Source of the DNA: Torymus aiolomorphi
Taxonomy: Eukaryota; Arthropoda; Insecta; Hymenoptera; Torymidae
DNA: 64,000 nucleotides
Reading direction: 5' to 3'
Assembly: GCA_036365515.1 (NCBI GenBank)
Contig: CM070877.1
Coordinates: forward strand, 117,153,321 to 117,217,320
The stretch's first letter is position 1, and each line of letters begins with the position of its first letter. The notes beneath the pieces are model-generated. The model was not told the origin of the DNA, did not search any database, and saw only the letters and a list, made by a program, of their open reading frames with translations. This document shows positions 2,076 to 13,625 of this stretch, piece after piece. Both the position numbers and the translations under genes were made by a program.

Positions 2076-3138
2076 AGTAGGTAAGCTAGGAGAGTTCTGC
2101 CCCGGTCTTATACATGGGCAGTATATCTATATATAGTATTTCCCCTAGACACCACTGCGCATGCGCGTACTTTCCCGCGTTGGATTCAAATATCTGCGCA
2201 CACTGATTTCTGTAATTTGAGACGGTCTTGTTGGGATAGTATATCTATAGTTTTCCCCAGATACTACTGCACGTACCCCCTACCCGCGACACCCTCGTGT
2301 GATTCACATTATCTCGTTCTCTCGTGTAAGATATACATGAGCACTATATATATGTGTATCTGTGTGTGTGAGTGTGTGTATATGTGTGTTTGTGTGTGTG
2401 TGTGTGTGTGTAAAAGAATGTATCATCATCTTGATACACATTAACTTCTAATGAACATATATTGATGCCCACGTATATGCAATTCGTTATCTACTCCCCA
2501 TCCCTCCCACCCCCATAACCGATTTGCGGTGACGTCATTAAATATTACGCCACCGTATTAAATATTGCGCCACCGTATTAAATATTGCAAAATATTACAC
2601 CTATGTGTGTGTGTCTGTACACATTAACTTCTAATGAACATATATTGATGCCCACGTATATGCAATGCGTTATATACTTCCCATCCCTCTTCCCCTACCC
2701 CGATTTGCAATGACATCATTAAATAGTACGCCACCCTGTTAAATATTGCAAAATATTACACCATATGTGTGTGTGTGTGTGTGTGTATGTGTGTGTGTGT
2801 AAAAGAATATATCATCATCTTGATACACACTAACTTCTAGCGAACTTGTATTGATGCCCACGTACATGCGTTATCTATCGCACCTCCTCTTTGTTCCGAT
2901 ATTCGCACCGTGCGATTCTTGGAACTCGAGAGTATTTCAATTGCACTCTCCTTATACACTCTCTTTTGTTTTGTCTTATAAAATTTAGGATTATTAATTT
3001 GTTAATAACAATTTTATTTGACAATGTCAATGGGTATATGGCCCGATAATTACATCTCATGAGGAACCAAAAATTTCATTATTTTTTCGATATCTTGAGC
3101 CGTTTACAAGATATAGAATGAAATTGATTTTAGCATGA
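2076..3138 (+). repeat. Left terminal inverted repeat of the Polinton
   Basis: It matches the complement of 11619-12627 with small indels, mainly in GT runs. Inside, a block of about 150 bp (CATTAACTTCTAATGAACAT, then TGATGCCCACGTATATGCA, then a C-rich stretch and GATTTGC) recurs at about 2440, 2622 and 2823, separated by (GT)n tracts. Confidence 0.93.
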
Positions 3139-3317: not shown

Positions 3318-4415
3318 TTACATATATGATTTGCTTATCCAACTATTGTGTGAGTTATCAAACCCTAACCATTTAACATAAATCTTATTTCCACTCTTCT
3401 TAAGCACCTTCTCCACAAGGTAGACATCTGGATATTTAGCTTTGAGCAGTTCTTGTTCGTAGAAACCACCGGCAATGGGTTGATCTCGATAGTCTTTTAG
3501 TTTGTAGGTAACTGGATTAGTAGCCATCACTTGACTTATTGTAAAAATTTCTGTTGACCAATTAGGTGTATAACCCTTCTCAAATACTTGCTTTATCTTA
3601 CTAACTCTTACTGTATCTCCAATCTTAAATTTTGGCTTTTTCATTATTTTAGCCTGTTGAGCAAACTTCGCAAGTACTCCTGCCTCATTGGCCAATGTTA
3701 TATCTTTAGGCTCCATTCCAGCGGTGCGATATTTGCTGTTATTGTACTCTTTTAGCAAATTGGACAAGATATCAAGCCACTTATACTTCCCACGCAAGCT
3801 GAATTGCATCCACATCTTCTGCTTAAGGGTGCGATTGAAACGTTCACAAATATATGCTTTGAGATTACTGTATGTCGAATAGAGATTAATTCCATATTGT
3901 TGCATGAGACTTTGAAATATAGCATTTTAAAATTCTTTGCCTCGATCGGTCTGTAAATTTGTTGGTTTGCGCCCCTGCTGCAAGATAGACTCCATTGCTG
4001 CTGTGACATCACTGCCAGTCTTTTGCTTTACCGGAACAGCTCATGCATACTTGGAGAATACATCGATGACAGTGAGCATATATCTATAGCCATTGTTTTC
4101 TCGAGCATAAAGCTGCATCTCCACTAGATCGGCTTGCCATGTCTCATCCAAGCCACGTACAATAAACTTGCGTCGTCGATAATTTCGACGTGCAGGCTTA
4201 TGAAGCTCTTTAACCACTTGCTTCTGCATGACCTTCATTCTGAATTATTGAAATCTTTTGTAATTTTGTCGTTCAGGTAAGGAAAAAGTATTAGAAGAAA
4301 ATTTATTTCTAAAATTTTTCCACTGTGATTCGTTCTTTTGTTTATCTTTTTGACTATTGTCAGAAAGTTTTGTATATGGTATATTGCTGTTCGTAGTACT
4401 ATTTGATTTATCCAT
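3318..4415 (-). pseudogene. Polinton integrase (DDE, C-terminal chromodomain), three in-frame stops
   Basis: Reading one minus-strand frame from the ATG at 4415-4413 gives about 365 codons. The N-terminal ~55 residues are polar. The retroviral-type core follows: the first Asp in WQADLVEM, the second in LQTDRGKEF and the Glu in AYICERFNRTLK, as expected for a D,D,E integrase. The C-terminal ~35 residues (VYLVEKVLKK, then YVKWLGFD, then SWI) form a chromodomain, typical of Polinton integrases. In-frame stops lie at 4247-4245 (TAA), 4043-4041 (TGA) and 3929-3927 (TAA), with no frameshift between the pieces. It is the last gene of the leftward block, about 180 bp from the left TIR. The enzyme would integrate element DNA into the host chromosome, but this copy cannot make a full-length protein. 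Confidence 0.9.
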
Positions 4416-4485: not shown

Positions 4486-4872
4486 TCAACTACTTGCTGC
4501 ATCTTCTAAGCTCTGAATTACAGACTGTATTTTTGAAAATTTTGCATCCATTTCATCCATTTCATCTCTGTGAGCCTCAATAATAACATCTAAATCGTCC
4601 AAATCTGGTCTTAATTTAGCAGTTACTTCATACAAGCTTCTGATTTCCATTTTAACTATGCGCTGTACAGTATCCAAATTAACAGCATCACCTAATTGGG
4701 TAGGCTCGGTAACGTTACATAATCTCTTACCGTCAATGTCGTATTGTCCGTCAGAAGTTACTTTGAAGCCAACACCCGAAGGACCACGACTACCTTCAGT
4801 ACGCTCGAGATTACATCCGAATACATCGACACTCATGTTGCAACTGACTGCAATACCATCGAGTTCAATCAA
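4486..4872 (-). CDS. Polinton fibre/spike-like protein (candidate)
   Basis: The open frame has 128 codons, but its first codon is TTG (4872-4870). The first ATG in the frame is 12 codons downstream (4836), so the start is uncertain and an ancestral ATG may be lost. Residues about 45-70 (YDIDGKRLCN, TEPTQLGDAV, NLDTVQ) resemble the motif at shaft-head junctions of phage tail fibres, where a strand, a turn and a D-A-V/A-T segment recur. The C-terminal half is acidic and heptad-like, probably a coiled coil. The frame overlaps the end of the upstream PPP1R15-like gene by 4 bp. I infer a trimeric surface or fibre protein, but no homologue is certain. It could also be a scaffold. Confidence 0.55.
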   Translation of the reverse strand: MIELDGIAVSCNMSVDVFGCNLERTEGSRGPSGVGFKVTSDGQYDIDGKRLCNVTEPTQLGDAVNLDTVQRIVKMEIRSLYEVTAKLRPDLDDLDVIIEAHRDEMDEMDAKFSKIQSVIQSLEDAASS

Positions 4873-5075
4873 TTTATACTCAAATATGTATAATATTTAT
4901 GTACGAGCACAGGCGTAATAATTTCAGATAGTCTCTGAATTCGTATTCGAAAACGCTCTCGATCACGTGCTAGCTGTTCCGATTTTCCATGACGTGCAGC
5001 TCGACTGGCATAGGGCCACACCTGCATCACATGAATAACTGGTTTAGCATCAAAGTGAACTCTCTTCAAAGACAT
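4869..5075 (-). CDS. PPP1R15 (GADD34/ICP34.5/DP71L)-like protein, 68 aa
   Basis: The ATG is at 5075-5073, one base after the stop of the upstream 309-codon gene. The stop overlaps the fibre-like frame. Near the N-terminus is KRVHF, which fits the R/K-V-x-F docking motif for protein phosphatase 1. About 12 residues on come W, A and RAARHG, then EQLARDRERF and an RI pair. This order and spacing match the conserved core of PPP1R15 proteins, whose second segment recruits eIF2-alpha. Cellular members (GADD34, CReP) and viral members (herpes simplex ICP34.5, African swine fever virus DP71L, some poxviruses) direct PP1 to dephosphorylate eIF2-alpha and restart translation. The Trp that often precedes the EQLARDR-type segment is Ser here. 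The frame is intact although neighbouring genes are broken. Inferred role: countering host translational shut-off by eIF2-alpha kinases. Other than PPP1R15-like I have no alternative that explains both motifs. Confidence 0.85.
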   Translation of the reverse strand: MSLKRVHFDAKPVIHVMQVWPYASRAARHGKSEQLARDRERFRIRIQRLSEIITPVLVHKYYTYLSIN

Positions 5076-5076
5076 C

Positions 5077-6006
5077 TTAATGTATATAACCTGCTTCTTT
5101 GAGTTCTTCAATGATTGAATAAATCTCATTTGTGTGGCTCTGATTGCCGGCTTCCAGTTCAGCCAAGAGTAAGCGAAGACGATCAACTAATTTGTTAGGA
5201 TCATCCCAGTATACATAGTCCATACGCATACCTTTTCTTGCAATCTTATATTTAGGTAAGAGGTCTGAGTCACTAACATTTCTGTTTATTGATTTATCGA
5301 AATAGGGACCTATGAAGTCCTTATATTTGTTACTGTTACTCTTATGCAGAGGTTGAGTTTCACTATAATTTCTTCTAAAAGCATTCGTCACTTCTACGAT
5401 TTTTCGATAATTTTCAATATCATTGGAACCTATGTGCATCAAGTCAGGTTGCTTCTGAAAGAGCAATTGAAGTAAACCTGCTGTTTTTAGATAGTTTACA
5501 TTTTGAACTTTCACATAAGTTTTTGTAAAATCTATAGGTGAGTCACCAATTTTCATTAAATTATCTTCTATTCGTATCCCATAGATATTATCGAGTGAGT
5601 TGGGGCGTTTTTCTATGGTCTGTAGGTAAGTTTGTTTAACAAATTCTGTTTCTTCGTCATCATAATCCTGTCCGCTTTCAGCTGTTTCAAATGATGCGTC
5701 TACTCTTTTAGTCTTTACAGTTTCATCAAGATCACTTTGTGATTCCTCTTCATCTTCATTATCTGAGCTAAGTTCTTGAACATAACTTTTTGCTCCTCTT
5801 CGGTCTTTTTTTTTTTTTACTTTCTTTTTCTCTGTTTGTGCAGCATCAACGAGTTTTTCAAGTGGACTTGCAATAGGCTTAAATGTTTCCCCCAACACCT
5901 TTTCTATATCTGTATCTTGCCTCAACTGCTTGTACTTTCGCTTAATTGCTTCTCTCGATTTTACAATTTGATTGAGAACGTTTTCCTCTTGCTTGAGGTG
6001 TGTCAT
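5077..6006 (-). CDS. Conserved Polinton protein of unknown function, 309 aa
   Basis: The frame is intact from the ATG at 6006. Residues 1-35 are charged and heptad-like (coiled coil), followed by a lysine run (KKKVKKKKDRR near 60-70) that looks like a nuclear localisation signal. An acidic serine-rich linker spans about 75-120, and a folded C-terminal half contains KYKDFIGPYFDK near 230 and YVYWDDPNKLVDRLRLL near 265. I recall the same C-terminal block in many insect Polinton loci, but its function is not known to me. The gene lies directly downstream of the ATPase and one base upstream of the PPP1R15-like gene, so the three may share a transcript. It could be a DNA-binding core or scaffold protein. 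Confidence 0.75.
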   Translation of the reverse strand: MTHLKQEENVLNQIVKSREAIKRKYKQLRQDTDIEKVLGETFKPIASPLEKLVDAAQTEKKKVKKKKDRRGAKSYVQELSSDNEDEEESQSDLDETVKTKRVDASFETAESGQDYDDEETEFVKQTYLQTIEKRPNSLDNIYGIRIEDNLMKIGDSPIDFTKTYVKVQNVNYLKTAGLLQLLFQKQPDLMHIGSNDIENYRKIVEVTNAFRRNYSETQPLHKSNSNKYKDFIGPYFDKSINRNVSDSDLLPKYKIARKGMRMDYVYWDDPNKLVDRLRLLLAELEAGNQSHTNEIYSIIEELKEAGYIH

Positions 6007-6028: not shown

Positions 6029-7068
6029 TCATACTAATCGGTTTTGCTTTGGGGCAGCTATATTTATAAGAAATTGAGCGAACCCCTTTCTATATCGACC
6101 ACTACCAAGTGCCCTCTCTTTGTCGATAACAAGGAATCCATACTTATCATTATTCCAGCAACTTGAACACAAATCTCTAAATTGAGCATATGACATATCT
6201 GTGTTTAAGTGATCATTACACTGAGAAAAAAAGAAGGCGTAATGTGCCGCAATCTTCTGTAAACAGAGCCGAAACGGTGGGGCAATGGAGGTTAGGCAGT
6301 ATAAGCTACCGACTGATGCTGACACTACCGACTCGCGGGGTAGAAATTACCGAAGCGCGGAGGTAGCGCCTCTTATGTTTTGGCTGGTGAAACAGTTGCT
6401 ACCGAAAAGTGCGGTAAAGATTGCGGACAGTGCGGTAAATATTGCGGACTACGTTGCAATCACAACCTAAGCGGGCTTCGGCTATTCCCCCACGCCGCAC
6501 TTCGGCACATATGGCGTATTTTTTTTCTCAGTGTATATACATGCTTTAAATTTATATCATCTTGTCGAAATAATACTAACAAATTAACATTATCTCTTAT
6601 TAGATGCTTTGGAATGTGAGCATAAGATTGACATAGATAGAAGCAGTCCACATTTTTGTGTCTTCCCATACAAAAGAAATTTTTAATGTTTTCTTGTTTC
6701 TCACATGCTACATCATCAAATATGATAATTGAATTTGGAAGTACATCTTCTATTGATATTACTTCATCATGATCCTTGAATGGGAAATACTTAATTCCAT
6801 TTATAGGCTTCAAGAGAAGCTTGAGAAATTTGTACTTGGGCTGTTCCAGTGATTTTGAGTAAACATATACATTTTCAAATTTTAATCCACTAGGATGAGT
6901 AATGAGTGAGAGTAGAGCGTTTGTTTTGCCACAGTTTGATGGACCACAGAATACAGCTCTAATATTATTGGGAAGTAATTCTCCATGACGTCTTTTTGAT
7001 TTTTGTTGCGTCATTAATTTATCAAAATTCACAACAGGTAGTTTAACGTGTTGCTCCTTAAACTCCAT
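6029..7068 (-). pseudogene. Polinton A32-like packaging ATPase, split by a MITE
   Basis: The likely start is the ATG at 7068 (MEFKEQH); an open extension to 7188 is not needed. Walker A is GPSNCGKT near residue 47 and Walker B is SIIIFDD near 118, as in the FtsK/HerA-type ATPases of Polintons and nucleocytoplasmic large DNA viruses, which pump the genome into capsids. The frame is open to about 6534, where a MITE (6219-6533) starts. On its far side the ATPase C-terminus resumes (NDHLNTDMSY, then SSCWNNDKYGFLVID) and ends at 6029. The first gene of the leftward block is therefore interrupted by insertion, and the C-terminal ~60 residues are separated. Confidence 0.9.
6219..6533. mobile_element. 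MITE (CACTGAGAAAAAAA ends) inserted in the packaging ATPase gene
   Basis: The element begins CACTGAGAAAAAAA and ends TTTTTTTTCTCAGTG, with TA-rich flanks. It is GC-rich inside, with iterated ACCGA and GTGCGGTAAA-type words. ATPase coding sequence is present on both sides, which fixes the boundaries to a few bases. It belongs with the other CAC(G/T)GAGA-ended MITEs in the window and entered after the Polinton had integrated, or while it was circulating. Confidence 0.8.
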
Positions 7069-7176
7069 GTTCAATGTTTGACGTCTCAAAAAAAAAACTA
7101 ACCTTGATCGTATATATACATCATACTTATATACATTTCCAGTTAGTATGTATTTATCCTCTGAGGTGTTAACATT
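7069..7176. promoter_or_regulatory. Divergent promoter region at the centre of the Polinton
   Basis: These 108 bp separate the divergent starts of the ATPase (minus) and the PLA2-like gene (plus). They hold TATATATAC (about 7110) and TTATATAC (about 7130) and no ORF. A shared early or late promoter is inferred from layout. Confidence 0.4.
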
Positions 7177-7985
7177 ATGATTGAGCATAAGCAGCGTAAA
7201 CGCAATATGCGTAAAGGTCGAGGCTTAGTCAATACAGTCATCAATAAACTTCCATTTGAATTACATCTGCCTGGCTATCAATATTGTGGACCTGGAACTA
7301 AACTTGCAAAGCGTCTTGCTCGAGGTGTCCCTGGAATTAATCCTTTAGACCAAGCTTGTAAAGAAAATGACATTGCCTACTCACGGAATCGAGAGAATGT
7401 TGAGGCTAGAAACGCTGCTGATAGACTATTAGCAGATAAAGCCTGGAAACGTGTTTTCGCTAAAGACGCAAGTATTGGTGAGAAAGCAGCAGGTTATACT
7501 GTAACAAACGCTATGAAATTAAAATCAAAGTTCGGTATGGGGCTGAAAAAGAGACCACTACACTCGCTAAAATAGTTAAAGCAGCCTCAAAACCGATTTC
7601 CCATAGTAGTGATTCACACAAGGTAATTCAAGCTGCATTGAAAAGTGCTCGAGATGCTGTAAAGATGGCTGGTGGTAAAGCTAAAGTACACATTCCTCGT
7701 GTACTACCAGTTCCACGAAAAATCGGTGGATTTCTACCTTTTTTGATTCCATTATTTGCGGGTCTAAGTGCAACTGGTGCACTGGCAGGTGGCGCTGGTG
7801 GCATAGCTAAAGCAGTAAATGATGCAAAAGCTGCTAAACGACAACTTGAAGAAAGTCAAAGACATAACAGTGCGATGGAAGCTATTGCTCTTGGTAAAGA
7901 TCTCTACCTTAAACCACACAAAACAGGTTATGGTATCCATCTTAAACCCTACAGCGGACGTGGCAAAAAAAAAACTTCGATGTAA
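7177..7985 (+). pseudogene. Polinton minor virion protein: parvovirus-like PLA2 domain plus pX-like domain, frameshifted
   Basis: The first frame (7177-7575, 132 codons) holds a parvovirus VP1-type phospholipase A2 core: HLPGYQYCGPGT (calcium loop) followed by PLDQACKENDIAYS (active-site helix). The catalytic His of the usual H-D pair is Asn here (AAT at 7366-7368), so activity is doubtful. A second frame, open from before 7540 to 7985, continues with a basic segment and a glycine/alanine-rich hydrophobic stretch (GGFLPFLIPLFAGLSATGAL) that recalls the membrane-active pX/mu region of adenoviruses. The ORF track start of that second frame (7638) is a TTG and the frame is open well upstream, so I read one gene with a frameshift near 7500-7560. 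Known role of such PLA2 domains: breaching the endosome during entry. Two separate genes is the alternative. Confidence 0.75.
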
Positions 7986-7987
7986 AA

Positions 7988-8344
7988 TTGATTCATAGAG
8001 CAGTGACTGACGCTGACTTGATAAAGTATGCTGGTATTATGCAAATTCCATACTTTCGAGGTGTATTCATGCGAAATACATTACTAGCAAAATGTCCACA
8101 TTACCGCGAATCAGAGATCGTTAATCTCGATGATGAAAGAGGACTTGGTGCACATTGGGTAGCCTATCGAAAACGAGGTAATCACGTTGCGTACTTTGAT
8201 AGTTTTAGAGACCTTCAGCCACCTATAGAACTTCTGGATTACCTGGGCGTTAGCACCGTAAAGTATAATCACGATAGATATCAAGATTATAACTCATACA
8301 ACTGTGGGCATCTCTGTTTAAAGTTTCTGAGTGAGGCTATATAA
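7988..8344 (+). CDS. Adenain-like cysteine protease of the Polinton
   Basis: This 118-residue frame has the adenovirus-protease layout: His in GAHWVAY (near residue 54), an acidic residue in YFDSF, and the Cys in YNCGHLCLKF near the C-terminus. Such proteases mature capsid proteins. The 5' codon is TTG (7988-7990) and the next in-frame ATG is at 8039, so the original start codon may be lost or the protein begins within what looks like conserved N-terminal sequence. The gene follows the PLA2/pX gene by 2 bp and precedes the minor capsid gene by 10 bp. No internal stop is present. Confidence 0.85.
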   Translation: MIHRAVTDADLIKYAGIMQIPYFRGVFMRNTLLAKCPHYRESEIVNLDDERGLGAHWVAYRKRGNHVAYFDSFRDLQPPIELLDYLGVSTVKYNHDRYQDYNSYNCGHLCLKFLSEAI

Positions 8345-8354
8345 AACGATGTAA

Positions 8355-9077
8355 ATGTTATACATAGTCAGTATTAATTATGCAGTTATGGGTGAATCAT
8401 TGATGCTAAGTTTATCTGGAACGTCATCTATACTAGAAACTCAATACTTTCCACCAATTGAACTCTTGGCAAATAAAAGATACGTTCTAGGATTGGTTGA
8501 ACTTTTAACCTTCAATTCAATATCTAATATTGATATCGGAAATAACAAGTTTTACGTCGGAGAAGAGATAGTGACATTACCGACAAGTAGCTGAGAGATT
8601 GAAGATATTGAGTGCCATCTACAGGAAATACTTACATCTAAAGGCATAGTACTCAGCCTTAAACCTAATAATAATACTCTTCGTAGTACTATAAAGTGCA
8701 GTCATACGATAGATTTTCAACCTGAAGATTCTATTGGAAGATTATTAGGTTTTACACAGCGTACTCTTTCAGCAAATATTACTCACGAATCAAATTTACC
8801 TGTAGCTATTCTCAAGATTAACGCTTTGCGATTTGAGTGCAACATTACAGCTGGAGCCTATATAAATGAACGGAAAGTACATACAATACACGAATTATTT
8901 CCAGCTGTTCCTCCAGGCTATAAGATCATTGAAATTCCAACACAAATTATGTATTTACCAATTACACTTCATACTATCGATTAGATATAATTGCGCATTG
9001 TCGATCAAGATGGAAACTTTGTGAATTTTCGTGGAGAAATTATAACAATTAGACTACACATCAAAGCAGCATCATAA
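8355..9077 (+). pseudogene. Polinton minor capsid (penton-like) protein, three in-frame stops
   Basis: One frame from the ATG at 8355 to the TAA at 9075-9077 (about 240 codons) encodes beta-rich sequence (SLSGTSSILETQYFPPIELL at the start; VDQDGNFVNFRGE near the end). I recall this as the single-jelly-roll minor capsid protein seen next to the protease in insect Polintons. The frame carries TGA at 8592-8594, TAG at 8982-8984 and TAA at 8988-8990, with no frameshift. It would form the capsid vertices. The assignment rests on position between protease and major capsid gene and on sequence character. Confidence 0.7.
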
Positions 9078-9262: not shown

Positions 9263-10471
9263 ATGGAAGATATATTGAACGTACAATCACCCGTGGAATT
9301 CGACGAATCTGTCGCTCATTATGAAGTGCATGCACATCAGCCTTACACTTCATCGGCTTTCAATAACAGTGATGAAATTCGTATCGCCATACAACATCAA
9401 GATCTCTGTCTACTACCTTCACGTAGTTCATTACATATTCATGGTCGATTAACTAAGGCAGATGATATAGCTGCTCTCAACACTAAGCTTGTAAACAACG
9501 CCCTCTGTCATCTTTTCGAAGAAATTTGATATGAAATTAATGCTGTAGAGATTGATAAATGTGAAAATGTGGGCTTGACAAGTCTAATGAAAGGTTTGGT
9601 GTCGTTCAATCCTACACAAAACTTGGAAAACGCAGGCTGGATTGATATTGGAGAAACTCAAAAAATCGTCAATAATGCTGGCTACTTTGACGTGTCCATA
9701 CCACTAAGTATGATTCTCGGCTTTGCGGAAGACTGTCGTAAAATCATAGTCAATTGCAAGCATGAGCTTGTTCTCACAAGATCAAAGAATGATGTAAATG
9801 CTATCGTGCAAACGCAAGCAGAAGAGTTTAAAATTAATCTAATTAAAATTGAATGGTTAATGCCATATGTGGTATTATCTGACAAGCATAAAATACGCCT
9901 CCTTCATTACCTACAGAAGGAAAAATCGATTGCTATGAGTTTTCGGAGTTGGGAGATATACGAGTATCCATTACTCCCAACAACATCGAAGCATGTTTGG
10001 ACTGTAAAGACATCGAATCAGCTGGAAAAACCTCGATTCGTCATTCTAGGCTTTCAGACTAATCGTAAAGGACAAAGTGGATCTAATGCTTGCCGCTTTG
10101 ACCATTGCAGTATAAATAATGTGAAACTATTTCTTAATTTACAATACTATCCTTATGGAAATCCCAATCTTAACATTGATCAAAATCAATTCGCTTTATT
10201 ATATGATATGTATGTAAGCTTTCAAAATGTGTATTATGGAAAAGAGGCAGAACCTATGGTCAAGAAAGGAGAGTATATACAGCATGCTCCTCTAATTGTC
10301 ATCGATTGTTCAAAACAGAATGAGTCGTTGAAGCAGGCTCCAGTTGACGTTCGTCTTGAATTCGAGGCTAAAGAAAATTTTCCAGCCCAGACATCAGCCT
10401 ATTCTCTGATTCTACATGATCGTATTATGGAATATAATCCCATAAGTGGGGATATTAAGAAATTAGTCTAA
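9263..10471 (+). pseudogene. Polinton major capsid protein (hexon-like double jelly roll), one in-frame stop
   Basis: A single frame of about 402 codons starts at the ATG at 9263 and stops at 10469-10471. The N-terminal part (SVAHYEVHAHQPYTSSAFNN) and the later NNAGYFDVSIPLSMILGFAED and RKIIVNCKHELVLTRS segments are characteristic of Polinton/adintovirus hexon-like capsid proteins, which build the icosahedral shell. A TGA at 9527-9529 interrupts the frame, and both sides are in the same register. It is the fifth gene of the rightward block and is followed by a promoter and one more gene. Confidence 0.85.
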
Positions 10472-10525: not shown

Positions 10526-11248
10526 ATGGAGTATTTGGTGGATGTGCAAGGGTTCAAGCAACCCATCAATGAATTTGTTGTCAAAGAATTAACCATTGTT
10601 CCTCTGAGTGGAAACGTGAAACCAGTGGTGTTTACCTTCAAGCTACCCATACCGTGGTGTAGACTTCCAGCAAAGTATAAAAGTCAAAATTGTTGGTTGG
10701 AACGTAATTATCATGGTTTATCATGGAGCTCTGGCGAATTACCATATGAAGAACTCGAAAATGTATTACGCAACAGCCTACATGATGCAAGTGTTGTTTA
10801 CGTTAAAGGCCTGGAGAAAAAACAATGGATTGAACAATATAACCTCAACGCATATGATATGAGTGACATGCGCTATCCATCACTACAGAGACTCAAGTTT
10901 GATGTGTTGGAGCAGCTATGCCCGTATCATAGACTTGCTTATAAGGCAAATTGTGCACATAAGAATGTACTATTGCTCAGAAAATTTTATCATGATAATA
11001 AGCCATCGCTGGAGCGATCGCTCAAGGTATTTTTTCGCACTGAACATTTATCATTTATGGGTCCTACAGATATTGCTCAGTTGCCTAAGGCATTTCTTAC
11101 AACGTTCGGAGCAAATAGTCTCTAGCAGGCGTGGGATAAGCTGCCTGAAGATTTAGAAAGTGATGAAGAAATTTTAAAATGTCTACGTTGTCGAGAGCAC
11201 AATTATATGGAAACTGTAGTGCCACCTTTAAGAAGAGATTGTATTTAA
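10526..11248 (+). pseudogene. Conserved Polinton protein of unknown function, one late stop
   Basis: The frame is open for 199 codons to a TAG at 11123-11125 and continues in register for 40 more codons to a TAA at 11246-11248 (CLRCREH near the end). It begins MEYLVDVQGFKQPINEFVVK and contains VVYVKGLEKKQWIEQY and, later, a Cys/His-rich stretch (CPYHRLAYKANCAHKNVLLL). I recall related proteins in many insect genomes within mobile loci. The D-x-Q opening, the central VKG-x-E-K-x-x-W segment and the late His-rich helix loosely recall the spacing of DEDD exonuclease motifs, but key acids are not clear, so function is left open. It has its own TATA/initiator promoter. Confidence 0.65.
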
Positions 11249-11618: not shown

Positions 11619-12301
11619 TCATGCTAAAATCAATTTCATTCTATATCTCGTAAACGGCTCAAGATATCGAAAAAATAATGAAATTTTTGGTTCCTCATGA
11701 GACGTGATTGACATTGTCATTGACATTGTCAAATAAAATTTTTATTAACAAATTAATAATCCTAAATTTTATAAGACAAAACGAAAGAGAGTGGATAAGG
11801 AGAGCGCAATTGAAATACTCTCGAGTTCCAAGAATCACGCGGTGCGAATATCGAAACAAAGAGGAGGTGCAACAGATAACGCATGTACGTGGGCATCAAT
11901 ACACGTTCGCTAGAAGTTAGTGTGTATCAAGGTGATGATACATTCTTTTACACACACACACACACCATATGGTGTAATATTTTGCAATATTTAACAGGAT
12001 GGCGTAATGTTTAATGATGTCATTGCAAATCGGGGATGGGGGATGGGGGATGGGGAGTAGATAACGCATTGCATATACATGGGCATCAATATATGTTCGT
12101 TAGAAGTTAGTGTGTACATACACATACACACACATAGGTGTAATATTTTGCAATATTTAATACGGTGGCGTAATATTTAATGACCTCATCGCAAATCGGG
12201 TATGGCGTGGGAGGGATGGGGAGTAGATAACGAATTGCATATACGTGGGCATCAATATACGTTCATTAGAAGTTAATGTGTATCAAGATGATGATACATT
12301 C

Positions 12302-12343
<42 letters not shown>

Positions 12344-12627
12344 ACACACATATATATAGTGCTCATGTATATCTTACACGAGAGAACGAGATAATGTGAA
12401 TCACACGAGGGTGTCGCGGGTAGGGAGTACGTGCAGTAGTATCTAGGGAAAACTATAGATATACTATCCCAACAAGACCGTCTTAAATTACAGAGATCAG
12501 TGTGCGCAGATATTTGAATCCAACGCGGGAAAGTACGCGCATGCGCAGTGGTGTCTAGGGGAAATACTATATATAGATATACTGCCCATGTATAAGACTG
12601 GGGCAGAACTCTCCTAGCTTACCTACT
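11619..12627 (-). repeat. Right terminal inverted repeat of the Polinton
   Basis: It is the inverted partner of 2076-3138, with the same internal block repeats and (CA)n tracts. It ends GCTTACCTACT. Confidence 0.93.
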
Positions 12628-12633
12628 ATCAAC
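12628..12633. repeat. Polinton target-site duplication, right (ATCAAC)
   Basis: It is an exact copy of 2070-2075. PLE coding sequence on the minus strand (ending SFLSNKPLL) runs directly up to this site. Confidence 0.85.
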
Positions 12634-13625
12634 AAAGGCTTATTAGACAAAAAACTCGCCAGTCTATAAGTCGGAAAATTTATCGATGATATTAATATTC
12701 TATATGTCAACTGTTCTTTGTGAATCTTAGGAAGCCCATAACATTTAGCTACAGTGCCATTTTCACATTTTAAATATTTAAACATACTATCCTTAATATA
12801 AGCTTTTGTTTTCCAATGCATCAATAATTCTTTCAATTTATCTTGTAGTTTATTGATATGTGGATTCCTAATTTTCACGTAAGTGGTATCATCATCCAAC
12901 ATAAGTTGAATTTTATTTATATAATTCCTTTTATCTGAACTACCTTTACATTTCCTTTATCTGATTTTTGGAAGATCATATTCGGATTCTCTCTCAAGAA
13001 TTTCTTCGTTATTTTTAATTCATGCAACAAATTACTGTTCAGATAATTATCAAATCTATTTTCTCTTTTAAAATTATTAATAACTTTAACTAAAGAACTC
13101 CTACATTCTTTTTTAAACTCTAGATTAAAACTACTAATACTACTTTCTACCTCAGCGATGATATTCTTGATCGGAAGAGCTTTACTTGAATATGATATTC
13201 CAAATTTAGCACCCTTTGACATGATATTTACCACTTCTTCTGGTATTACTTTATCCGTTAGATTTCTAAACCAATCTTTATTAACACTGTTAGTTTGATT
13301 GACCTGAGAGTGTTTTTTATGTTTAAAATATTCAAATTTTCTTTTTAATTTACTCCTATGATTATATTTTACTTTTTCTAAGTGCCTCTTTTGACCACAA
13401 AAAAAATTCTTGCAAATTATTCTGTTCTACTTTATTATATAAACATCTTTCAAGCTCTATTAATAAATATTTATTCAAACGATTAATTTCAAAATTCAAA
13501 TCTCTAATTTCTAAATTAAGTAATTTATTCTTGAAAAAGAAAATATTTTTCCGTAGATCATAAGAAACTCTTTTGTTGTAATCCCGATAAAAACTAATAT
13601 TTGTGTTATTGAATCTAATAGTCAA
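12634..13625 (-). pseudogene. Penelope-like retroelement: N-terminal region and start of RT
   Basis: Three minus-strand frames (13625-13362, 13234-12917, 12902-12634) together give the PLE N-terminal region: FQKSDKGN, then DDTTYVKI, then KCYGLPKIHKE and YRLASFLSN, the conserved entry into the RT domain. Frameshifts near 13.3 kb and 12.92 kb break it. It stops at the Polinton junction. The orientation matches the RT/GIY-YIG half at 461-1420, so the two may be halves of one PLE copy, although the central palm motifs are missing between them. Confidence 0.75.

Follow-up and report, generated by a model that had tools for sequence, protein, structure and literature searches.

A candidate PPP1R15-family gene, decayed in this copy, in a multiplied Polinton/adintovirus-like lineage of the wasp Torymus aiolomorphi

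The stretch analyzed here, referred to as the window, comprises 64,000 nucleotides of the genome of the torymid wasp Torymus aiolomorphi. Close to its left end lies an element bounded by two terminal inverted repeats (TIRs), at positions 2076 to 3138 on the plus strand and 11619 to 12627 on the minus strand, which are 89.7% alike over 1068 aligned positions. Between them, the minus strand encodes an integrase in separate frames (3318 to 4238), recognized by weak, below-cut-off matches to an rve domain (4041-4238, E 0.0029) and a chromodomain (3318-3905, E 0.0015); an open reading frame (ORF) that the initial annotation named fibre-like (FIB; 4486 to 4872), with only weak, sub-threshold Pfam matches, among them one to T7 tail fibre (E 0.028), a listed TTG start, and an ATG 36 bases inside; the 68-residue ORF that is the subject of this report, designated R15 (4869 to 5075); a gene of 309 residues without a Pfam match (P309; 5077 to 6006); and a packaging ATPase (6460 to 7188; Pox_A32, E 3.4e-9). 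The plus strand encodes a protein with a phospholipase A2-like domain (7177 to 7575; PF08398, E 1e-10), an adenovirus PX-like core protein (7638 to 7985; a weak match below the cut-off, E 0.005), a Ulp1/adenain-like protease (7988 to 8344; likewise weak and below the cut-off, E 0.035), a short ORF (8355 to 8594), a double jelly-roll (DJR) major capsid protein in two frames (9263 to 10471; DJR match at 9569-10471, E 1.2e-101), and a conserved ORF, ORFc (10526 to 11125). The outer ends of both repeat arms encode the same short peptide. Retroelement pieces of Penelope-like appearance flank the element at 461-1420 (GIY-YIG, E 5.1e-5) and, as judged by eye, at 12567-13234.

Counterparts of several of these ORFs were found elsewhere in the genome. 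In the copy L087, the major capsid protein occupies one frame of 403 residues, and the counterpart of the short ORF at 8355 to 8594 is 240 residues long with no Pfam match; our guess is that it is a minor capsid protein. A tyrosine-recombinase-like ORF was also noted by eye beyond the Polinton end in L087 (690-1280). In the divergent stretch L081, the protease counterpart matches the adenovirus protease (E 7.1e-6), and a relative of ORFc is 30% identical to that of the window. L081 (G000:C2:200662100-200672000) thereby represents another Polinton-like region, divergent from that of the window. An R15-like frame at 4913-5098 has an in-frame stop, lies ~2.5 kb past the adenovirus-type protease and the ORFc homologue, and may belong to one element with them.

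The carrier of R15 is a Polinton/adintovirus-like element. The inverted repeats, the DJR capsid protein, and the packaging ATPase are all present in the window, together with protease and integrase matches that fall below the cut-off, and the Polinton setting proposed in the initial annotation was thereby upheld. The window copy is decayed: its integrase and capsid frames are split, one ORF is short, and DNA polymerase B (PolB) is missing, with none found among the listed ORFs of the element. That the whole family lacks PolB was considered, as a genome scan that scored 73 of 4669 PolB candidates placed none of the 73 at a distance of 30 kb or less from any of 150 R15 copies. This idea was overturned by a sister copy, L086, in which an adjoining 692-residue ORF matches viral PolB (PF03175, E 9.4e-34), so that the R15 family includes PolB-bearing Polinton/adintovirus-like elements.

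R15 is read from an ATG without a stop over 68 codons; begun at a TTG, as in the mechanical ORF list, the frame spans 105 residues. The initial annotation had described a PPP1R15-like protein, with a KRVHF motif and an EQLARDRERF segment in the order and spacing expected of that family. Both are present as described (residues 4-8 and 33-42, with ARDRERF at 36-42). When R15 was compared to all solved structures with phmmer, the best-matching family was PPP1R15A (7nzm, E 4.6e-8; 4xpn, E 3e-6), with weaker matches to DP71L of African swine fever virus (ASFV; 9nb9, E 0.014) and PPP1R15B (E 0.76). The reversed R15 sequence gave no PPP1R15 match among the solved structures (best E 0.34), and the Smith-Waterman score of R15 against the PPP1R15A core, 118, was equaled by none of 20,000 shuffles, for which the maximum was 55. 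A lack of significant profile matches, named at the outset as counting against the claim, was not seen: a profile of 32 family members matched PPP1R15A at E 3e-15, DP71L at 1.1e-9, and PPP1R15B at 1.8e-7.

The corresponding Pfam model, PF10488, matches the window R15 weakly (E 0.013; 15.6 bits, below the cut-off of 26.1), and its scores for the relatives P0042 (21.3 bits) and P0036 (17.6 bits) are also under that cut-off. At E <=1, however, 30 of the 32 family members were matched by PF10488 (best 2.8e-8), and the same scan matched NIPSNAP in 8 of the 32 (best E 0.0039). Several relatives, e.g., P0003, carry precomputed PF10488 annotation. The predicted structure of R15 has an extended N terminus followed by helices at residues 21-27 and 31-67 (pLDDT 79.7, pTM 0.40). 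Judged by its sequence, R15 is a genuine relative of the ~70-residue PPP1R15 core.

The sites known to matter in this core can be placed on R15 with some precision. The window protein carries R5, V6, H7, and F8, a motif of the PP1-docking type, in which V6 is kept in 67 of 68 genomic copies and F8 in 66. The PPP1R15A chain 7nxv_C (582-621) starts at Trp582, and its second residue aligns with R15 residue 33; residue 32 of R15 is therefore the place of Trp582. In the window that residue is Ser, whereas Trp occupies it in 62 of the 68 genomic copies and in all 131 database relatives. Two further residues, F42 (human Phe592; 68 of 68 copies) and R45 (human Arg595; 63 of 68), are both present in the window, and among the 131 relatives F42 is found in 129 and A36 in 124. 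In PMC8500838, Phe592 and Arg595 are described as the main actin contacts of human PPP1R15, and Trp582 as invariant, with no measurable part in PP1 or actin binding and important for substrate dephosphorylation. With Ser in the Trp582 place, the window R15 is probably an impaired or inactive member of a family that otherwise works; by analogy with the human protein, it would still bind PP1 and actin and would work poorly on eIF2-alpha. The description of the ORF as intact thus held for its frame, which is open over 68 codons, but not for the invariant Trp, which is lost, or for the element around it, which is broken.

A search of the genome (1.08 Gb in 21 contigs) indicated that R15 belongs to a multiplied family. 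Among 638 candidates, at least 150 copies gave a scored match, and 14 of the 150 have an internal stop. We read 68 copies, chosen by R15 similarity and consisting of eight loci and 60 of the other 142. P309 neighbors R15 in 67 of these and the fibre-like ORF in 66, so that the position between the two genes, which the initial annotation had singled out, recurs in sister copies. The junction TAAGATG (window 5073-5079), in which a single base separates the P309 stop from the ATG of R15, is found in 64 of 68 copies, which suggests reinitiation or a shared transcript for R15. In 57 of the 68, R15 is open, with an ATG and no stop, and 54 of these 57 keep the Trp. The two motifs are likewise conserved in sister elements, both among the genomic copies and among the database relatives.

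A second sample, picked by the capsid gene rather than by R15, comprised 131 copies scored of 2331 candidates and was compared with 211 listed R15 places. In 87 of the 131, an R15 place lay on the expected side at a distance of 1-12 kb (median 4294 bp), against 1 in which it lay on the wrong side. The R15 lists are incomplete: of the 44 capsid copies for which R15 was not listed, 7 were read directly, and 5 of them held R15.

When the protein databases were searched with R15 alone, four relatives were retrieved. Iteration with the alignment of these four gave 34 at E <=10, and with 32 aligned sequences it gave 121 at E <=0.01 (at least 120 listed). Among the 132 proteins collected, the window ORF included, 90 are shorter than 90 residues, in a search that favors lengths near that of the query. 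One insect match, P0102 of Bracon brevicornis, is named "Protein DP71L" in UniProt. Another relative, P0042, is an 85-residue protein of the Megastigmus wasp adintovirus whose deposited name is "hypothetical protein," and an adintovirus member of the R15 family is therefore already in the databases, without an assigned function. P0042 is 51% identical to the window R15 over 87% of the ORF, matches PF10488 at E 2.4e-4, and, when used alone against the solved structures, matches PPP1R15A at E 6.7e-10 and DP71L at 6.4e-7. No relatives of R15 were found among viral_contigs or phages, and none of the capsid protein among viral_contigs.

The wasp also has a candidate host PPP1R15 core exon, L082 (C2:112299591-112299791), which is preceded by an AG acceptor, opens immediately ahead of the V in the RVxF motif, and has HRMRIWRERF at its end, as do the hymenopteran genes found. 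It groups beside those genes in the tree (support 79-87), with a Bracon sequence as the nearest named row, a placement that points weakly to a wasp. R15 is 50-52% identical to L082 and 35-50% to the other host-type sequences tested, and it differs from host-type PPP1R15 in having neither the intron of L082 nor the HRMRIWRERF tail. In situ capture of a host gene was rejected as an explanation, since R15 lies within the inverted repeats between element genes, recurs, and has a separate candidate host exon in L082.

For the first tree, rows filled in fewer than 48 of the 68 columns were dropped, as was P0035, leaving 128 of 132; for the tree that gave a set of 53 rows, P0034, P0123, P0126, and P0127 were dropped as well, leaving 125 of 133. 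The 53-row set (SH-aLRT 99) unites the window family with the adintovirus protein and other, mostly short proteins, excludes the seven named host genes and L082, and takes in a few uncharacterized proteins of 125-218 residues. A tree of 47 chosen rows mostly lacked resolution, and in an AU test a grouping with the host exon was retained (p 0.052). The suggestion that R15 might bridge the genes of hosts and those of DNA viruses was not demonstrated, the 68-column trees being too weak.

We consider it likely, with a probability of about 0.72, that the window R15 is the decayed copy of a gene that truly belongs to the PPP1R15 family, recruits an eIF2-alpha phosphatase, and is carried by a multiplied Polinton/adintovirus-like lineage. 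From the homology, the conserved sites, the place of the gene, the deficit of shared replacements described below, and the adintovirus relative, we infer PP1, actin, and eIF2 binding and an anti-shut-off role as follows. Intact copies would encode a protein of 68-70 residues that comprises nothing beyond the PPP1R15 core. Through the RVxF stretch at its N terminus, this protein would dock on the host phosphatase PP1, and the invariant Trp together with the ARDRERF helix (31-67 in the model) would contact G-actin and bring phosphorylated eIF2-alpha to PP1. Dephosphorylation of eIF2-alpha would then allow translation to go on during the response of an eIF2-alpha kinase to the replicating virus.

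The pattern of changes among the 68 copies bears on whether such a gene is still in use. Changes seen in one copy comprise 70 replacement and 15 silent changes plus 7 stops; those shared by 2-3 copies, 18 and 11 plus 1 stop; and those shared by four or more copies, 11 and 9 plus 1 stop. Relative to a neutral expectation of 2.5-3.3 for the ratio of replacement to silent changes, single-copy changes look neutral, with a ratio above that range, and shared changes fall below neutral. The one-copy and four-or-more classes differ (Fisher p 0.016, for sites that are not independent and copies picked by R15 similarity). Pairwise pN/pS drops from 0.74 to 0.20 with rising pS, the last bin being 10 pairs, and over all pairs it is 0.40, no lower than in the neighboring genes (0.31-0.48). 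A dN/dS near 1 across copies, named at the outset as a sign against a functional gene, was thus not seen in the overall pN/pS or in the shared changes, but the single-copy changes are neutral-like and one subfamily shares a stop. The divergent database relatives lend stronger support to constraint on R15 than do the within-genome counts. Between subfamilies, pS is 0.45 in mid-P309, 0.094 in R15, and up again in FIB; this valley may reflect cassette recombination or the sampling by R15 similarity.

The subfamily with the shared stop was recognized by its capsid gene. Ten capsid copies have the same score, 613.3 bits (e.g., G000:C3:39613446; L088, L090-L092, and L095), a tie suggestive of recent amplification. 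Seven copies of this subfamily were read: 5 have an R15 at the expected place that is interrupted by one common stop, at codon 47, and the other 2 showed no R15 in 405 bases. The stop removes residues 53-57, which align with the LSAVL stretch of DP71L; according to PMC5346070, DP71L requires both this stretch and its V16/F18 motif. R15 thus seems unneeded for spread within the genome, unless it is supplied by other copies. Dispensability for amplification fits an accessory gene needed in infection, or a relic: a gene that was captured, was once useful, and is now carried along in elements that spread without needing it. The stop in this apparently amplified subfamily, the neutral-like single-copy changes, and the window copy, which has lost the Trp and several genes, all favor the relic. 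Nevertheless, in a group of 26 copies that tied in the R15 genome scan, with 99.2% identity across 2 kb, all 12 copies read have an R15 that is open and bears the Trp, shared changes are short of replacements, and divergent relatives retain the key sites. We regard a relic as an unlikely alternative to a phosphatase-recruiting gene that the lineage has kept.

R15 might also dock on PP1 and use its actin helix while sending PP1 to a substrate other than eIF2-alpha, such as a virion protein or an innate signaling protein. The RVxF motif and the actin-contact residues F42 and R45 are kept, and the eIF2 function of R15 rests on homology. In PMC8633803, moreover, substrate binding of the human R15 proteins is assigned to a region outside the core, and G-actin is not required for it; if that placement is right, a bare core would lack substrate binding. 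PMC8500838, on the other hand, reports that the human core of ~70 residues suffices in cells, and we lean toward that account of the substrate role of the core. The Trp with a reported role in eIF2-alpha dephosphorylation (PMC8500838) is kept in all 131 relatives, which makes a different substrate improbable. A chance frame, or the product of an overlapping frame, can be dismissed for practical purposes: the ORF has just 68 codons and starts one base past the P309 stop, but neither the structure match, nor the shuffles, nor the reversed-sequence control, nor the 57 of 68 copies with an ATG and no stop fits such an origin.

Returning to R15 as a gene for recruiting eIF2-alpha phosphatase, we find it reasonably probable that insect Polintons/adintoviruses, as a lineage of small capsid-bearing DNA viruses, carry a dedicated gene of this kind to counter translational shut-off, retained during virus circulation and readily lost once copies only spread within the genome. 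A bare core in these elements would extend counter-defense to capsid-encoding elements long treated as transposons and would argue that Polintons/adintoviruses face the eIF2-alpha kinase response in real infections. Insects have PERK and GCN2 and are not known to have PKR, which would raise the further question of the kinase against which the gene acts. Insect virology would gain a small, testable protein, and the genome offers a natural record of when a gene of the R15 type is kept and when it is lost.

Large DNA viruses with documented PPP1R15 mimics include herpesviruses and ASFV (PMC8633803, PMC8500838, and PMC5346070). Within the open-licence literature, no report among the matches listed joins a Polinton or adintovirus with PPP1R15 or GADD34. 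Three Polinton papers that also mention eIF2 appeared unrelated from their titles and abstracts, and the text of two adintovirus papers names neither PPP1R15 nor eIF2 nor a phosphatase. The R15 family would place mimics of this known kind in Polintons/adintoviruses. Herpesvirus ICP34.5 has further regions besides a core of the PPP1R15 type. It can be likened to R15 by its description as a known viral PPP1R15 mimic that brings PP1 to eIF2-alpha (PMC8633803 and PMC8500838). The cores of PPP1R15A and PPP1R15B (GADD34 and CReP) share with the R15 family the order and spacing of the RVxF motif, the Trp, the ARDRxRF motif, and the helix that follows, whereas R15 consists of the core alone and is intronless. 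ASFV DP71L, a chain of 71 residues, resembles R15 in being a stand-alone viral core (profile E 1.1e-9); however, it belongs to another virus group, and it aligns to the R15 family only if a gap of one residue is allowed ahead of the invariant Trp. The protein of the Megastigmus wasp adintovirus, P0042, is related to R15 but divergent.
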